Positions 2,058 to 27,746 of a DNA stretch of 41,014 nt are shown here, one piece after another. A model generated the notes under the pieces. That model ran no database searches, was not told the DNA's origin, and was given only the letters and a program-made list of their open reading frames with translations. Source of the stretch: Deltaproteobacteria bacterium (lineage in GTDB: Bacteria; UBA10199; SPLOWO2-01-44-7); the NCBI GenBank assembly GCA_023265595.1, contig JAHFSU010000005.1:1-41014 (forward strand), in the 5' to 3' direction. Both the position numbers and the translations under genes were made by a program. Positions within the stretch are counted from its first letter, which is position 1, and each line of letters begins with the position of its first letter.

Positions 2058-4169
2058 ATGGTCGCCCTCATGAATCCTATTGGCGCTACTTTCCAGACAG
2101 CAATCTTCTCCTATGTCGGACTCTGCAACACCGCCGACGAAGCGGCTACTTTTTTGGCAGCCAACCCTGTTTACGATCCAACCGATCCCGTTCGTGAGTT
2201 AGAAACCCTTCTTCAAACAAGACCCCCTGCGGAAACATGGCAGGCGATAGCGGCCCGGTTTCGGGATAAACTGACCACCATCGGTTCAAACGCAACCCCT
2301 TCCTCAGAAGAAATGCTGCGGACCGAGAGGGCCGTGGCGCTGAGAGCATGGGGGGTTCCAAATCCGATCGAGGCGGCACGGCTTGAGGAGGCATTGAGAC
2401 TTAAAATTCCCTTGAGCCCCGAGGCGCCCGAGGTGGCACAAAGATTCTTCATCATCGCCAGGACCAATGAACTTTTGTTGGCCGACGTTCCCAATGCCAC
2501 CGATGTGGCAAGGCTGGAACAACAATGGGGGTTTAAACTCGATCTGGACCCAAGCAAAATCGAGGCGCGCGCAAAAGAATTGAGGAGCCTTTTTTCTTTC
2601 GTAACCCTGCCGGTGCCGGCCGCCTTTGACCTGCTCCCTCTCCGCCAAAAAGAGGCGATCATTAAAGTGGCCCGGGCCATGCGTCTGCTCAATGTTCCTT
2701 ATCGCTTACAGAGCAATGCCTATGGAGCGATTTTTGAAAAATTGGTGATGAACACCCCCGCATTGGCCCCTCTGCGTGAATATTATGTCCGATTTGGCGG
2801 CGTTTATAATTTTCTCAAGCCCGATGAGAACAGAAAGCCGCACAGTTTTCTCCCCGGCATGGAACAAATTGCCAGATACCCCGGCGGCGGGTTTTATCCG
2901 TACGGGATGACCGAAGAACAATTTCGTGAGCATATCCCAGCAGGCTCTTCCCTTGATAGAGAGATGAGGGTGCTTTTCCGTTTTAATGAAACAGGCGAAC
3001 TTGTCGCCATCCCCTTTTCCAAGGCTTATGCAGAATGGCTGCAACCCGCAGCGGAGCTTCTGGAGGAAGCCGCAGCGCTAATCGAACAAGAGAATCCGAA
3101 GATGGCCGTCTATCTCCGCTCTTCAGCCAGAGCCTTCCGCACCAACGATTTTCGGGATAACGATCTCACATGGCTTCAACTGACGGATGGACCGCTTGAT
3201 GCCAATGTCGGCGCCGTGGAACAATACATGGATGCCCTCCGCGGCTATATGGCCCAGTTTACCGGCACCATTCAGGTAAAAGATCCCGAATTGGAGAAAA
3301 AACTCTTTGCACTCAAAGAGGCTTATCCCGAATTGGAAGAAAATCTGCCGGTCCCAGCAAAATATAAAAAACCGAGGGCCCAGCGCATCCCGCCCCCCGT
3401 GTCTGTGGTCAATGTGATTTACGGTTCTGGCGATGATGTTTCCGGCGAGGGGATTGCCGTTGCCTACAACCGCCCGAATGATGAAGGAGTGCGTAGCAAA
3501 GGAATCCGCATTGTCCTCATGCAAAATCTTTATGATGCCCGCACCAAAGATGCGGTGGGTAAAAAATTGACGGAACTGGCCATCGATCCCTCACAACAGT
3601 CTTTGGCTACCTCCGAAGGGGGAATTTTGTCGATCTTTTTCCATGAAGAGGCGCACGGCAACGCCATTGAATATGTGCTCGGGACAAACAATCCTGCGAC
3701 ACAAGCGTTGGGAGAAATTGGGAGATCTTTTGAAGAGCTCCGTGCCGATGTGGTGGGGCTCCATAATGCCAAAACCGCTTTTGATTTGGGATTGATTTCG
3801 GGGCAGACGCTGCATGAAATTTATGTCAGCCAGATTCGCAGAGAGATAGGTATTTTGCGCAAGGGAATTGCGGGCGCACATGCCCGCGGGGCCTTGGTAA
3901 TCCTCAACTATCTACAAAATGCCGGCGCCATTGCCATCGATCCTGAAACAGGGATGACAAAAGTCGATTTGGAAAAAATGCCGTCTGTCATTGCCGAGTT
4001 CTCCGCTCTACTGATTACGATCAAGGGCGACGGCAATAAAAAAGTCGCGGAGGCTCTGTATGAACGCTGGGGTCAAACCCCGCCGGTTGGTCTCCAATTT
4101 ATTTATGATGCCATGCAAGATCTTCCGGTCGACAGCCTCATCCGTTTTGCCTTCGATGACAAGATATGA
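2058..4169 (+). CDS. M49-like zinc metallopeptidase (dipeptidyl-peptidase III-related)
   Basis: A 703-aa protein, the usual length of dipeptidyl-peptidase III. Two metal-site motifs appear in the right order and spacing: H529-EEA-H533 (HEXXH), and EELRAD at 559-564, which corresponds to the EECRAE motif that supplies the third ligand. The preceding AYNRPNDEGVRSKG segment also resembles the region before the M49 active site. Most M49 enzymes have a six-residue HEXXGH motif; the five-residue form is known from some bacterial members such as the Caldithrix enzyme. No signal peptide is seen, so it should be cytosolic and cleave dipeptides from oligopeptide N-termini. ATG 2070 is an alternative start; neither has a strong Shine-Dalgarno. 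The TGA stop is formed by the family A palindrome at 4168. Confidence 0.66.
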   Translation: MVALMNPIGATFQTAIFSYVGLCNTADEAATFLAANPVYDPTDPVRELETLLQTRPPAETWQAIAARFRDKLTTIGSNATPSSEEMLRTERAVALRAWGVPNPIEAARLEEALRLKIPLSPEAPEVAQRFFIIARTNELLLADVPNATDVARLEQQWGFKLDLDPSKIEARAKELRSLFSFVTLPVPAAFDLLPLRQKEAIIKVARAMRLLNVPYRLQSNAYGAIFEKLVMNTPALAPLREYYVRFGGVYNFLKPDENRKPHSFLPGMEQIARYPGGGFYPYGMTEEQFREHIPAGSSLDREMRVLFRFNETGELVAIPFSKAYAEWLQPAAELLEEAAALIEQENPKMAVYLRSSARAFRTNDFRDNDLTWLQLTDGPLDANVGAVEQYMDALRGYMAQFTGTIQVKDPELEKKLFALKEAYPELEENLPVPAKYKKPRAQRIPPPVSVVNVIYGSGDDVSGEGIAVAYNRPNDEGVRSKGIRIVLMQNLYDARTKDAVGKKLTELAIDPSQQSLATSEGGILSIFFHEEAHGNAIEYVLGTNNPATQALGEIGRSFEELRADVVGLHNAKTAFDLGLISGQTLHEIYVSQIRREIGILRKGIAGAHARGALVILNYLQNAGAIAIDPETGMTKVDLEKMPSVIAEFSALLITIKGDGNKKVAEALYERWGQTPPVGLQFIYDAMQDLPVDSLIRFAFDDKI

Positions 4170-4196: not shown

Positions 4197-5012
4197 TCCA
4201 ATATGTTCTTAACTCCCAAAATCATAGGTATTCTCAATGTGACGCCGGACTCCTTCTCGGATGGGGGGCTTTTTGTCGATGGCAAGCATGCGGTGGCGCG
4301 GGCACTTCAGATGGAAAAAGAGGGGGCACACATCATCGATATCGGCGGGGAGTCGAGCCGGCCAGGGGCCCAGCCGGTTTCGGTTGAAGAGGAATTGGGA
4401 CGGGTGATTCCGGTTATTCGAGAGTTGCGACGCCGATCGCCTATTGCCATTTCCGTGGACACGCAAAAATCGATTGTCGCCGCGCGTGCCATCGAGGTCG
4501 GCGCCACGATGATCAACGACATTACTGCGGGATTGGGTGATCCCAAAATGTTTTTCGTTGCGGCAAAATTCGGTGTGTCGATTTGTCTGATGCACATGAA
4601 AGGAACGCCGCAAACGATGCAGGCCAGCCCGCATTACGATGATGTGGTGGGTGAGGTGAAACAATTTTTGGCGAGTCGCATTGCGGCGGCCCTGCAGGCG
4701 GGTATTGCCAAAGAAAAAATTATTATTGATCCGGGACTCGGTTTTGGAAAACGTCTCGAAGATAACATCGCCCTTTTGAAAAATTGCGACCACTTTTTGG
4801 AATTGGGATGCCCCATTCTGATCGGCGTTTCGCGCAAATCATTTATCGGGCAAATCACCGGCGCGCCGGTGGAAGAGCGCCTGCCGGGAAGTTTGGCCGC
4901 CGCCGCCATCGCCCTCCAAAAAGGGGCCTCCATTTTCCGCGTCCACGATGTCGCCGCTACAAAACAGTTTTTAACTACCACACTGGTACCCCATGGTTCT
5001 GCTTTTAGGTAG
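4191..5012 (+). CDS. folP: Dihydropteroate synthase
   Basis: Condenses p-aminobenzoate with 6-hydroxymethyl-dihydropterin diphosphate to give dihydropteroate in folate synthesis; cytosolic TIM barrel. Family signatures are clear: GILNVTPDSFSDGG near the N-terminus, DIGGESSRPGA, SVDTQKS, NDITAG, the lysine loop DPGLGFGK, and GVSRKSF. About 270 aa, normal length. The ATG at 4191 lies inside the family A palindrome; ATG 4203 (MFLTPKIIG) is an alternative and probably closer to the ancestral start. The C-terminal DVAATKQFLTT is repeated, with only synonymous differences, in a relic at 5925. The sulfonamide-target function is expected to be intact. The cdaA/glmM genes that often follow folP are absent here. 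Confidence 0.95.
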   Translation: MLSNMFLTPKIIGILNVTPDSFSDGGLFVDGKHAVARALQMEKEGAHIIDIGGESSRPGAQPVSVEEELGRVIPVIRELRRRSPIAISVDTQKSIVAARAIEVGATMINDITAGLGDPKMFFVAAKFGVSICLMHMKGTPQTMQASPHYDDVVGEVKQFLASRIAAALQAGIAKEKIIIDPGLGFGKRLEDNIALLKNCDHFLELGCPILIGVSRKSFIGQITGAPVEERLPGSLAAAAIALQKGASIFRVHDVAATKQFLTTTLVPHGSAFR

Positions 5013-11689: not shown

Positions 11690-11940
11690 ACCGTTCATGG
11701 TTCGACAAGCTCACCATGAGCGGTCCTTAAATTCACCATGAGCGGTCCTTAAATTCACCATGAGCGGTCCTTAAATTCACCATGAGCGGTTATCAAAGGC
11801 TCACCATGAACGGTCCTTAAATTCACCATGAGCGGTCCTTAAATTCACCATGAGCGGTCCTTAAATTCACCATGAGCGGTCCTTAAATTCACCATGAGCG
11901 GTCCTTAAATTCACCATGAGCGGTTATCAAAGGCTCACCA
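11690..11940. repeat. Family C tandem array (22/24-bp period)
   Basis: After an imperfect inverted repeat (ACCGTTCATGGT.../...ACCATGAGCGGT, 11690-11723), the unit CACCATGAGCGGTCCTTAAATT is repeated. Units begin at 11712, 11734, 11756, 11778, 11802, 11824, 11846, 11868, 11890 and 11912, with a broken one at 11936. Eight units are 22 bp; the fourth and tenth are 24 bp and end GGTTATCAAAGGCT. The start codon of the Bro-N fragment lies in the tenth unit. Confidence 0.92.
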
Positions 11941-19679: not shown

Positions 19680-19841
19680 GAGCATATGGGCACCTCTAAA
19701 AACCACCGTTCATGGTGAGCCTTTAATAACCGTTCATGGTGAGCCTTTAATAACCGTTCATGGTGAGCCTTTAATAACCGTTCATGGTGAGCTTGTCGAA
19801 CCATTAACGGTTTAAGCATATAGTACCTGCTACCATATGCC
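19680..19841. repeat. Family A element split by a family C array (copy 8)
   Basis: The left piece GAGCATATGGG (19680-19690) and right piece AGCATATAGTACCTGCTACCATATGC (19815-19841) are family A sequence. Between them, CCGTTCATGGTGAGCCTTTAATAA (24 bp) starts at 19706, 19730, 19754 and 19778. The last unit continues into CTTGTCGAACCATTAACGG, which closes an inverted repeat with AACCGTTCATGGT. The cluster begins three bases after the bamA stop. Confidence 0.85.
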
Positions 19842-19843
19842 TC

Positions 19844-19880
19844 TTGACATTATGTGTATGAAATAGGATATTATACACAT
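19844..19880 (+). promoter_or_regulatory. vapBC2 promoter with operator palindrome
   Basis: TTGACA at 19844-19849 and TATTAT at 19869-19874 (19-base spacing; GATATT at 17 is an alternative). A perfect inverted repeat ATGTGTAT (19852-19859) / ATACACAT (19873-19880) spans the spacer and the -10 and ends in the ATG of the antitoxin. This is the expected place for autorepression by the antitoxin-toxin complex. Transcription would begin at or within a few bases of the start codon, suggesting a leaderless message. Confidence 0.68.
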
Positions 19881-20082
19881 GCCAAAGGTTCGTAAACAAT
19901 TTATCCTTGATGCTTCCAAAATCCGGCGCGCCAAAAAAATTCTGGGCGTTGCCACGGATACCGAAGCCGTAAATACAGCGCTGGATATTCTCCTAGGCAA
20001 TGCCGAAATTGTCGATCTCCACAAAAAGTTGGCAGGGCGGCTGAACATTAAAGACATGGATCAGAGCAAATTCGGTGGCTAA
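19879..20082 (+). CDS. vapB: Antitoxin of second VapBC pair
   Basis: A 67-aa protein: VRKQFILDASKIRRAKKILGVATDTEAVNTALDILLGNAEI fits a ribbon-helix-helix antitoxin, the first strand followed by two helices with the TDTEAVNxAL pattern. The C-terminal DLHKKLAGRLNIKDMDQSKFGG is the likely toxin-binding tail. No Shine-Dalgarno precedes the ATG, and the operator palindrome ends at it, which agrees with leaderless translation. The gene overlaps vapC by eight bases. It differs in sequence from the antitoxin at 653-856, so cross-neutralisation is not expected. It is the first gene of the island inserted between bamA and skp. Confidence 0.85.
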   Translation: MPKVRKQFILDASKIRRAKKILGVATDTEAVNTALDILLGNAEIVDLHKKLAGRLNIKDMDQSKFGG

Positions 20083-20494
20083 GATTCTTTTGGACACATC
20101 GGTCTATATCCCCCTCCTAAGGCAAGGCAGGTCTCCCGGCGCCATTCTGAACACCCCCGGCTCCATCATTTATTTAAGCGCGGTTGTTGCCGAGGAGCTT
20201 TTCGCCGGGGCCGGAGACGCCGTAACCGTCAAAGCCCTTGAAAAACTCTGCCATATTTTTCAAAAAAACAGGAGAATGGTTGTGCCCGCCGAAAAAGACT
20301 GGTTCGAGTGCGGATCGATACTGTCGCAAATGGGGAGAAAATACGGTTACGAATCGATCAAGAAAGGCCGGTTGGTCAATGATATACTCATTGCGCTCGG
20401 CTGCAAAAATATCGGCGCCGCATTGCTCACTTCAAACCACAAGGATTTTCAAATGATCCACAAATTCGTTTCTTTTCAGATGATTGGAATATGA
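20075..20494 (+). CDS. vapC: VapC-type PIN-domain toxin, second pair
   Basis: 139-aa PIN domain ribonuclease. Acidic residues are D7 (ILLDTSVYI), E40 or E41 (VVAEELFAG), D103 (LVNDILIAL) and D124 (NHKDF). GTG start at 20075, inside the end of the antitoxin gene. A final ATA codon is followed by TGA, which is again the first part of a family A palindrome (20493-20521). Its closest functional partner is the overlapping antitoxin; the RNA target is unknown. Sequence differs clearly from the other PIN protein at 255-656, so the two pairs did not arise by recent duplication in this locus. Confidence 0.88.
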   Translation: MAKILLDTSVYIPLLRQGRSPGAILNTPGSIIYLSAVVAEELFAGAGDAVTVKALEKLCHIFQKNRRMVVPAEKDWFECGSILSQMGRKYGYESIKKGRLVNDILIALGCKNIGAALLTSNHKDFQMIHKFVSFQMIGI

Positions 20495-20521
20495 GCATAT
20501 GGTAGCAGCTACCATATGCTC
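20493..20521. repeat. Family A palindrome, copy 9 (perfect)
   Basis: 14-base arms GAGCATATGGTAGC and complement around one A, perfect. It supplies the vapC stop codon and ends one base before the stop of the convergent 411-aa gene, filling the whole space between them. Confidence 0.92.
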
Positions 20522-20522
20522 T

Positions 20523-21758
20523 TCACGAGCATACCTCGTGCAACAGTTCCTCCAACTTTGAAGCTACATTGTCGGCCTGCTCCTTTTTGGCATGTTTTAT
20601 TATTTTCCGCACAATGGCCTCTGCCTTTTGAGGATCCCCAAGAGCAACCAAACGAGCCACCTCATTCAATTCTTCACACTCTTTTACGGCCTTTGGATGA
20701 GACAAATCTCTCCTCGCCATCTCCAGACATTCTTGAGCCAACAGTGCAACATTATTTACTGCTGGAATCTGTCGACTTAAGCCTTCCAACATTCCCATAA
20801 AAATCTCTTCGATGCCAGCCGTCGCTGACTCACCTGCAGTCTCCCTTGAAAGTTTTTTTCTTATCGGTTGGACAATGTCTCTTTCCAACAAGTCATGGGC
20901 CTCCCGAAATTTTTCTTGGGCCACCAAAGGAGGTAATTGACTCATGACCTCTCCGGCTTTCCTCACAAGGATTGTCAGTTTCCTCTCACTTCTCATAAGA
21001 CTTTCCCGATCTTCCTCATCACACTTACCTAACCGTTCTTCTGTAAATGTTTTTGGTATTTCCTCTTGAAGGATGGATAACAAATGGGTGGCCAGCTCCA
21101 TCAATTTTTCAAACTCGAGCTGGTTCCACTCCACCCTCAATGCCAAGCGTATCGTTGGGTAGTCCGAGTTAACTAAATTGACTCCTCTTCTTAGCACTAT
21201 CTCTTCAAAAAGGATCCTTGCTTCCAGAACCCGAACCTCATTAATTTTTTCATAGATCGTTTTTATAACAGGCAAAAGAGAGGTCAGCAGACTCAATTGC
21301 GCAAGTGCATAGTCCGACAAAGGGATCCCCCTCGTTGCCATTTCTCTACAATAAGAAATGTGGTTCTGCAAAAATTGTTCAAAGATACGGATGGCGTTCA
21401 AAGCTTTTGCTTTATCCCATCCACCCATCGCTGTTTCCACAACATTACCCGAATCGGGAGGAGCAAGCCGGACCCTTTCATCTTGCGCGCTGGTTTCTCC
21501 ATCCGCGAAAGCGTAGCGCGTACGAGCGCCATACGTACCGATCGGCCTTGCGAGCATCGATCGGGGAGTTTCCGAAGAGAGCCAACCGGTCTGCAAATTT
21601 TTTAAACCGTCGCTTGAGGCCAACACCTCCAGTGCGGTCGCCGTGTCTGCATTAGCCGGGGCACTCTGAATGGCCGCTTGCAGAGAGGCCGCATTGGCCA
21701 AAGCGGCATTGCTCAGCAGGGGCAAACTCAAAACAACATCGGTCATGACAAAATTCAT
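20523..21758 (-). CDS. Hypothetical alpha-helical protein, 411 aa
   Basis: A strong TAGGAGGT Shine-Dalgarno lies eight bases before the ATG at 21756-21758. The N-terminal 50 residues are Ala/Leu/Ser-rich (LSLPLLSNAALANAASLQAAIQSA), followed by a variable linker (RYAFADGETSAQDERVRLAPP). From about residue 115 on it is long amphipathic helices rich in Glu, Lys and Leu, probably with coiled-coil or helical-bundle character (LEEEIP, KEQADNVASKLEELLHEV). No known domain was recognised and no catalytic motif is evident. The low-complexity N-terminus resembles in style that of the 278-aa gene at 1077. It stands between two family A palindromes in the bamA-skp island. Confidence 0.72.
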   Translation of the reverse strand: MNFVMTDVVLSLPLLSNAALANAASLQAAIQSAPANADTATALEVLASSDGLKNLQTGWLSSETPRSMLARPIGTYGARTRYAFADGETSAQDERVRLAPPDSGNVVETAMGGWDKAKALNAIRIFEQFLQNHISYCREMATRGIPLSDYALAQLSLLTSLLPVIKTIYEKINEVRVLEARILFEEIVLRRGVNLVNSDYPTIRLALRVEWNQLEFEKLMELATHLLSILQEEIPKTFTEERLGKCDEEDRESLMRSERKLTILVRKAGEVMSQLPPLVAQEKFREAHDLLERDIVQPIRKKLSRETAGESATAGIEEIFMGMLEGLSRQIPAVNNVALLAQECLEMARRDLSHPKAVKECEELNEVARLVALGDPQKAEAIVRKIIKHAKKEQADNVASKLEELLHEVCS

Positions 21759-21814: not shown

Positions 21815-21857
21815 GAGCATATGGTACCGAGCATATGGTATCTGCTACCATATGCTC
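21815..21857. repeat. Family A palindrome, copy 10, with adjoining partial copy
   Basis: A partial GAGCATATGGTACC at 21815-21828 is joined to a full 29-bp palindrome at 21829-21857 (one mismatch in the arms). It lies upstream of the 411-aa gene and of the NYN gene. Confidence 0.88.
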
Positions 21858-21871
21858 TTTAAAATCCCTTG
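21856..21871. repeat. 16-bp direct repeat, left copy, flanking the NYN cassette
   Basis: TCTTTAAAATCCCTTG, identical to 22642-22657. The pair encloses the NYN gene and its leader (21872-22641). Confidence 0.85.
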
Positions 21872-21926
21872 GATAAAATTGATGTTGCAGAGATCGGGCC
21901 ATTATCCTAGGATGTAGCTATCTTCT

Positions 21927-21968
21927 CCCCGTTGGATCAGCCTTAGGGCCTCTAACGGGGTTATTTTT
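21927..21968 (+). promoter_or_regulatory. Terminator-like leader hairpin of the NYN gene
   Basis: CCCCGTT (21927-21933) pairs with AACGGGG (21954-21960), with a small inner GCC/GGC stem. TTATTTTT follows and runs directly into the ATG at 21969. A possible promoter TTGCAG (21885-21890), 17 bases, TAGGAT (21908-21913) would start transcription just before it. The transcript would then be either a short RNA of about 45 bases ending at the T-tract or, on readthrough, the NYN message without a Shine-Dalgarno. Confidence 0.55.
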
Positions 21969-22619
21969 ATGCGCTCCGAACCAGCACCAAAAAGAACAAT
22001 CGCCTTTGTGGATGGGCAAAACCTTTTTTATGCGGTTAAAAAGGCTTTTGGTTACAATTATCCCAACTATGACCCCAAGGCGTTAGCCCAAAAAATCTGC
22101 GAAGAACAAGGTTGGCAATTAACAGAAGTTTTCTTTTACACAGGGATGCCTGATTCCACTGACGACGTTTTTTGGCATTCCTTCTGGACTAGGAAACTTG
22201 CTGTAATGGGCACAAGAGGTGTTAAAATCTTTACCCGTTCCCTGCGCTATCGAAATCAAACAATCGCATTGCCTAACGGGAAAATGACAACGGTTCTCGT
22301 AGGGCAAGAAAAGGGTGTTGATGTCCGTATCGCTTTGGATATTGTCCGAATGGCTCTTGATAATCGGTACGATGTCGCTTTGATTTTGAGTCAGGATCAA
22401 GATCTTTCTGAGGCAGCCGATGAAGTTAGGAAAATCTCAACTTCTCAAAACAGATGGTTAAAAGTGGCCTCCGCATTCCCAATTAGCCCTACTGCTGGCA
22501 AACCTCGTGGCATCAACAACACAGACTGGATAAAAATTAACCGCACTACCTACGACACTTGTCTCGACCCCAACGATTATCGTCACAACCCTGCAAGTGT
22601 CAGACACCCTCACGGCTGA
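21969..22619 (+). CDS. NYN-domain (LabA/DUF88-like) putative ribonuclease
   Basis: 216 aa. The PIN-like NYN fold is recognisable: AFVDGQNLFYAV with D15 and N18, an internal KGVDVRIALDIVRMA with the second acidic site, and the final ILSQDQDLSEAADEVRK with the SxDxD-type motif. These acidic residues bind Mg in the NYN nucleases, so RNA cleavage is the likely activity. No partner gene is next to it. The start codon follows a terminator-like hairpin without a Shine-Dalgarno. The last residues (SVRHPHG) are encoded in a GTGTCAGACAC palindrome, so the C-terminus is probably altered by a repeat. Gene plus leader are flanked by a 16-bp direct repeat. Confidence 0.83.
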   Translation: MRSEPAPKRTIAFVDGQNLFYAVKKAFGYNYPNYDPKALAQKICEEQGWQLTEVFFYTGMPDSTDDVFWHSFWTRKLAVMGTRGVKIFTRSLRYRNQTIALPNGKMTTVLVGQEKGVDVRIALDIVRMALDNRYDVALILSQDQDLSEAADEVRKISTSQNRWLKVASAFPISPTAGKPRGINNTDWIKINRTTYDTCLDPNDYRHNPASVRHPHG

Positions 22620-22638
22620 AAGTATTTGACACTTTCAG
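22597..22638. repeat. REP-like palindromes at the NYN 3' end
   Basis: GTGTCAGACAC (22597-22607) is self-complementary, and CTGAAAGT/ACTTTCAG (22616-22638) forms a second stem around ATTTGAC. Together they carry the NYN stop codon and may act as its transcript end. Confidence 0.5.
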
Positions 22639-22641
22639 ACA

Positions 22642-22657
22642 TCTTTAAAATCCCTTG
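22642..22657. repeat. 16-bp direct repeat, right copy
   Basis: TCTTTAAAATCCCTTG, identical to 21856-21871. It lies in the skp promoter region, so this is probably the ancestral copy. Confidence 0.85.
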
Positions 22658-27659: not shown

Positions 27660-27662
27660 CAA

Positions 27663-27691
27663 GAGCATATGGTAGCTGCTACCATATGCTC
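27663..27691. repeat. Family A palindrome, copy 11 (perfect)
   Basis: GAGCATATGGTAGC and complement around one T. It begins three bases after the spoT stop and precedes the HEPN/MNT toxin-antitoxin pair. Confidence 0.92.
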
Positions 27692-27746
27692 CTTTCAGAT
27701 GCATAAGATAATTGCGCGACATTCTAAATGGTGGTATTTATCGCGC

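Follow-up and report, generated by a model that had tools for sequence, protein, structure and literature searches.

An NYN ribonuclease gene preceded by a conserved small structured RNA, probably a toxin and its RNA antidote, in a deltaproteobacterial genome

The NYN cassette upstream of skp

The window analysed here is a 41,014-nucleotide stretch of DNA from a Deltaproteobacteria bacterium, and it carries, directly upstream of skp, a small cassette containing an NYN ribonuclease gene (Table 1). The original prediction, made from the sequence alone, had described this cassette as a nuclease gene with a possible promoter, a terminator-like hairpin touching the start codon and REP-like palindromes, enclosed by a 16-base direct repeat, and each of these features is present. 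The two copies of TCTTTAAAATCCCTTG are identical and enclose 770 bp, and the T-tract TTATTTTT that follows the hairpin abuts the ATG of the NYN gene at 21969. The hairpin CCCCGTTGGA/TCTAACGGGG together with TTATTTTT has a folding energy of -21.8 kcal/mol (z = -3.7), and none of 200 shuffled sequences folded as well. The cassette is adjoined at 19879-20494 by a gene pair for a VapB-like protein (67 aa) and a VapC-like protein with a PIN domain (139 aa), and between this pair and the NYN gene lies a 411-aa ORF on the minus strand (20523-21758) for which no match was found in Pfam, NCBIfam or PADLOC. The window also holds tandem arrays at 11711-11911 (22-bp units) and, just after bamA, at 19705-19779 (24-bp units).

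Table 1. Features of the NYN cassette and its borders, in window coordinates
Feature	Positions	Strand	Basis or remark
Palindromic repeat copy, arms GAGCATATGGTA..TACCATATGCTC, full GAGCATATGGTATCTGCTACCATATGCTC	21829..21857	.	>20 further genome copies; not NYN-specific
Left 16-mer TCTTTAAAATCCCTTG, possible target duplication	21856..21871	+	Exact match to 22642-22657
Predicted promoter TTGATG-18 bp-TATCCT	21879..21908	+	Consensus scan; start predicted ~21912-21917
Conserved small structured RNA, ~50-55 nt	21914..21968	+	Covariation in 26 homologues; 5' end and transcript predicted
RNA parts in order: 5' tail, P1, P2, T-tract	21914..21968	+	
P1 5' arm CCCCGTTGGA, pairs with 21951-21960	21927..21936	+	Folding and covariation
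P2 hairpin GCC-TTAG-GGC	21940..21949	+	Compensatory changes in 3/3 pairs
P1 3' arm TCTAACGGGG	21951..21960	+	Folding and covariation
T-tract TTATTTTT, intrinsic-terminator-like	21961..21968	+	TTAT conserved in RNA alignment
NYN ribonuclease gene, 216 aa	21969..22619	+	Pfam NYN, PADLOC HEC-09, alignment, AF2 model
REP-like palindrome CTGAAAGT..ACTTTCAG, cassette 3' end	22616..22638	.	Relatives on contigs C39, C57
Right 16-mer TCTTTAAAATCCCTTG, upstream/-35 region of native skp promoter	22642..22657	+	Matching sequence before skp in G001, G003, G004, G005

The NYN assignment of the ORF is supported by a match to Pfam PF01936 (E=4.8e-12; score 47 bits, cut-off 24.2). The three catalytic aspartates, D15, D118 and D143, are invariant among 19 homologues, and they agree with the D13/D118/D143-type active site described for NYN proteins (PMC11346440). 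A sequence search of the PDB with the window protein returned no match; the AF2 model (pLDDT 87.5) has its best PDB match in 2QIP and is that of a typical NYN fold. The PADLOC profile for HEC-09 (PDLC04163) matches residues 8-160 with E=1.1e-16, and a search of phage records for relatives found none. The protein is predicted to be a metal-dependent NYN (PIN-like) endoribonuclease.

The right copy of the 16-mer had been placed in the skp promoter region and the left copy read as a target duplication. The first part of this claim stood, since the right copy corresponds to a conserved -35 region and matching sequence, with drift, is found upstream of skp in the same-genus genome G001 (CTAAAATCTCTTGTATTT), in G004 (CTTAAAACCCTTGTATTT) and in G005 and G003. 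Because the right copy belongs to the native skp promoter, the left copy may plausibly be a target-site duplication. The possibility that the 16-mer is a common repeat was rejected because its 15-base core has just two exact copies in the 1.87-Mb genome. Among Markov-2 random versions of the window, 4% contain a direct repeat this long or longer with its copies no more than 1 kb apart, and the 16-mer pair is the sole such repeat in the real window, tandem arrays aside. The first two bases of the left copy are also the last two of the palindrome that precedes it. This palindrome, GAGCATATGGTAGCNGCTACCATATGCTC, occurs in the window at 20493-20523, 21829-21857 and 27661-27694 and more than 20 times genome-wide, often right after stop codons, and resembles a REP or terminator-like family; the palindrome at the cassette's 3' end likewise has relatives elsewhere in the genome.

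In G001 the site is empty: skp directly follows bamA, with no vapBC, 411-aa ORF or NYN gene between them, and the NYN cassette is absent from G003 and G005 as well. The cassette could have been inserted here or lost by lineage elsewhere, and its absence from G003 and G005 favours insertion. Direct repeats of 16-168 bp flank 8 of 29 cassettes, among them repeats of 50 bp (L041), 62 bp (L043), 32 bp (L045) and 168 bp (L085), compared with 8 of 76 control ORFs (Fisher p=0.04). Since control genes also have flanking repeats, target duplication is rejected as a general rule for these cassettes, the excess is suggestive only, and mobility by this route is a lead. In the Peribacteria locus L043 the cassette follows a superoxide-dismutase-like gene, and a second copy (84%) of that gene's 3' end stands behind the NYN gene (3799-3860, 4649-4710); in L085 the 168 bp repeated around the cassette come from a thioredoxin-like gene.

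A conserved RNA directly upstream of NYN genes

The hairpin belongs to a predicted small RNA with the consensus ACUUSCUCCCCGyysGACnyGCCGnAAGGCCUCnrrCGGGGUUAUUUUUU, which on consensus folding forms a hairpin with an inner helix. The original prediction had proposed covariation analysis and a search for the hairpin next to other NYN genes, and both came out in its favour. Among 26 distinct RNAs, 96.4% of the alignment cells at paired positions are paired and 9 of 13 pairs show double changes; no shuffle out of 500 reaches any of the five measures used, and pairing falls to about 50% when the partners are shifted by a single column. One P1 pair is GC in 10 RNAs, CG in 9, GU in 4 and UG in 2. A model (R2) from which the window and its class were withheld recovers the window RNA at 21909-21973 (52 bits, E=1.3e-9), and it also matches L023, L024 and L026 with E-values from 2e-6 to 5e-11. 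An Rfam search of the window and 20 further loci found no family that matches the RNA. At 25 loci the highest promoter score upstream of the RNA averages 8.2, compared with 6.6 (sd 1.0) in shuffled sequence, and in most loci transcription is predicted to begin no more than a few bases from the conserved ACUU. The RNA consists of a single unit, no tandem repeats having been found upstream of the NYN gene, and each of its positions is conserved or covaries.

Homologues of the window's NYN protein were gathered from three collections, and among those with 46-71% identity the RNA lies directly upstream of every one examined for which the 5' flank is present. The same hairpin and T-tract were found shortly 5' of the gene in 13 of the first 13 homologues, and later ones were likewise preceded by them. 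According to their records the hosts include Deltaproteobacteria, Omnitrophota, Peribacteria, Pirellulales and Caldilineaceae (Chloroflexi), together with alphaproteobacterial loci, one of them on a Methylobacterium plasmid. When 385 genomes were searched with an RNA model (R1), the RNA was present in all 12 in which NYN gave a strong match. Among 195 relatives of another host (G130), the RNA accompanies every strong NYN match with an intact 5' flank. Two genes stand apart: the one in G440 is cut by the contig end, and the one in G474, a distant homologue, shows a hairpin and T-tract by eye. Distances between RNAs correlate with those between the proteins (Mantel r=0.65, p=2e-4). Several genomes carry two copies of the cassette, and in cassettes at unrelated sites DNA homology runs from the predicted 5' end of the RNA to the NYN stop codon and no further. 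The reading of the locus as an RNA plus a nuclease is supported by these results. Of the roles first suggested for the RNA (substrate, guide or regulator), that of a guide is unlikely, the RNA having no variable segment.

Loss of the nuclease and a possible wider HEC-09 pattern

The NYN gene has been lost repeatedly while the RNA was kept. A search with the RNA only in the G130 set gave 15 loci, at which the NYN gene is intact in four, interrupted by one stop in one, truncated or internally deleted in four and absent from six. Most of these 15 RNAs have perfect helices, and P1 mismatches are seen in several RNAs beside a lost NYN gene (L118, L122, L127, L178 and L179). At one ancestral site the gene is intact in L175, internally deleted in L173 and gone from L178, and the RNA is kept in all three. 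In L046-L048 the NYN gene has in-frame nonsense codons (two, at different positions, in L048) next to an RNA that is still present, and in L127 the RNA remains with the last 20 NYN codons. The reverse situation, an intact NYN gene of the window subfamily without the RNA, was not seen in the genomes searched. This asymmetric loss is consistent with a toxic nuclease and a harmless or protective RNA, and part of it may be due to chance because the RNA, about 13 times shorter than the gene, is a small mutational target. Three of the NYN-less RNAs lie next to other genes, all named by eye: one of 58 bits (L118:1501-1565, minus strand) has a DUF433-like ORF on one side and a RelB-like antitoxin/RelE-like pair on the other, one (L122:1373-1437) lies beside a Cas6-like gene, and one (L129:1501-1577, minus strand), whose helix is fully compensated and whose predicted promoter is strong, precedes a STAS/ATPase-like gene.

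A second NYN subfamily, represented by seven loci, has its own two-hairpin RNA, ACCCC..GCUUCGGC..GGGYGCGAGGCC, which ends in a terminator and shows compensatory changes. Its proteins match HEC-09 over nearly the full length (E=6e-43), as do NYN proteins from E. coli plasmids (E=2e-48), and directly upstream of the genes on small E. coli plasmids there is again a hairpin pair with a terminator, kept in two diverged versions. The small plasmids with a HEC-09-type NYN gene and this upstream arrangement come from E. coli, Klebsiella and Salmonella (L104, L106, L107, L140 and L143). Beyond its seven members, the model of the second-family RNA (R3) gave weak or off-position matches, none of them convincing, so the wider association of NYN genes with RNAs rests on inspection. 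One R3 match (L145:1109-1184, 38 bits) lies on the minus strand just after an NYN gene in a Mycobacterium prophage and could be an antisense element or a terminator. We raise only tentatively the possibility that many bacterial NYN/HEC-09 nucleases, beyond the window subfamily too, have a cognate small RNA with a built-in terminator, and that together they make up a large and so far unnoticed class of toxin-antitoxin or defence systems in which an RNA is paired with a PIN-like RNase.

Relation to known systems and possible mechanism

The order of the predicted elements recalls type III toxin-antitoxin systems (ToxIN, CptIN and TenpIN/AbiQ), in which a promoter is followed by a small RNA, a terminator and the nuclease gene (PMC5086642). 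The short RNA, the intrinsic terminator and the endoribonuclease gene come in the same order here, the promoter and terminator being predicted, and a single promoter (again predicted) and a mobile, patchy distribution are also shared. In contrast, the type III toxins have the ToxN/AbiQ fold whereas the window protein is an NYN (PIN-like) protein, a fold not known among type III toxins. The type III antitoxins consist of tandem pseudoknotted repeats; here there is a single unit, for which consensus folding gives a hairpin, followed by a terminator of its own. The cassette is type III-like in layout and, with no tandem repeats and another toxin fold, is not classed as type III. A second parallel is AbiF, whose RNA (RCd22, Rfam RF03085) precedes the toxin gene in the same promoter-RNA-terminator-toxin order, is co-transcribed with it and neutralises AbiF in cis and in trans by direct binding (PMC12373285). 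Both loci place a conserved RNA and terminator just 5' of a toxic or potentially toxic nuclease-type protein; however, AbiF is an Abi_2 (Cas13-related) protein and not an NYN protein, RCd22 has two motifs where the window RNA has one, and the RNA families are unrelated, the window RNA having no Rfam match.

Of the catalogued NYN proteins, the candidate defence system HEC-09 is among the closest, and the window protein matches its profile as a divergent branch. HEC-09 has candidate status only and goes unmentioned in the main text of PMC8565338, and its library entry is a protein profile without an RNA. The CRISPR-associated NYN proteins and VPA0982 (PDB 2QIP) share the NYN fold and the D15/D118/D143-type active site; reports on them describe no cognate leader RNA, and the window gene is not linked to a CRISPR array. 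In the literature searched, made up of published papers free of subscription, no RNA partner is described for any bacterial NYN gene. Against this literature the NYN gene and the small RNA form an undescribed pair, which probably acts as a toxin and its RNA antidote.

On balance, and by analogy with the type III and AbiF systems, we lean towards reading the locus as a horizontally acquired module of an RNA antitoxin and an NYN RNase toxin, in which toxicity and neutralisation are inferred. The VapBC-like pair beside the cassette is in keeping with this reading. A single promoter would drive both the structured RNA and the endoribonuclease. The RNA's own terminator would end most transcripts, giving a free RNA, and rare read-through would yield a little NYN mRNA. 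The RNA, presumably in excess as in the analogous systems, would bind the nuclease and block it. A drop in the RNA, for example after phage shutoff of host transcription or loss of the cassette, could then release the RNase, which would cut RNA of the cell or of an invader. The co-inheritance of the RNA with the NYN gene suits any RNA-protein partnership, not neutralisation alone, and other readings have to be weighed.

The strongest of these, which we nonetheless consider unlikely, is that the hairpin is a cis-acting attenuator only, holding expression of an ordinary RNA-decay enzyme low, perhaps with autoregulation through binding or cutting by the NYN protein. A T-tract ends the hairpin upstream of the NYN gene everywhere, the only SD-like GGGG in the window locus lies inside the P1 3' arm next to the ATG, and a few of the RNAs (L118, L122 and L129) are upstream of other genes. 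However, the predicted leader before P1 is just a few bases long and leaves no room for an antiterminator, so a classical or riboswitch-type attenuator is unlikely; moreover, P2, the ACUU at the 5' end and the TTAT are kept across phyla beyond the needs of a terminator, and the RNA stays where the NYN gene is gone. Rather less probable still is an RNA-dependent defence effector, in which the RNA would serve as cofactor, guide or sensor and either activate the nuclease or direct it against foreign RNA. The listing of related NYN proteins as a candidate defence system, the co-inheritance noted above and the ability of NYN proteins to process CRISPR RNA (PMC11346440) fit such a role, but an activator would not explain why the RNA is kept after the nuclease is lost, and a guide role is unlikely, a programmable guide having been rejected for want of any segment that varies or could be programmed.

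We give very little weight to the idea of a minimal mobile element, in which the RNA and nuclease would aid insertion of a unit of about 0.7 kb, leaving repeats of variable length, with the internally deleted copies as non-autonomous forms. The flanking repeats at some cassettes, the sharp boundaries of the unit, the duplicate copies in several genomes and the empty site in G001 would suit it, but the repeats vary in length and also surround control ORFs, there is no transposase, and terminal inverted repeats were not seen by eye. Hairpins followed by a T-run are common, and the weak RNA-model matches L124-L126 resemble plain terminators, but the notion that a neighbouring gene's ordinary terminator precedes the NYN gene by chance is ruled out by the conservation data, namely the held-out model, the covariation and the linkage to NYN genes in unrelated phyla.

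This widespread nuclease family, so far listed as a candidate defence gene of one protein, appears to have a conserved RNA partner that annotation overlooks. If the RNA is an antitoxin, the pair would be an NYN/PIN-like toxin module with one of the smallest RNA antitoxins. Such a pairing would account for the safe carriage of a mobile RNase across phyla, and the function of NYN genes cloned without the RNA would be missed or distorted.
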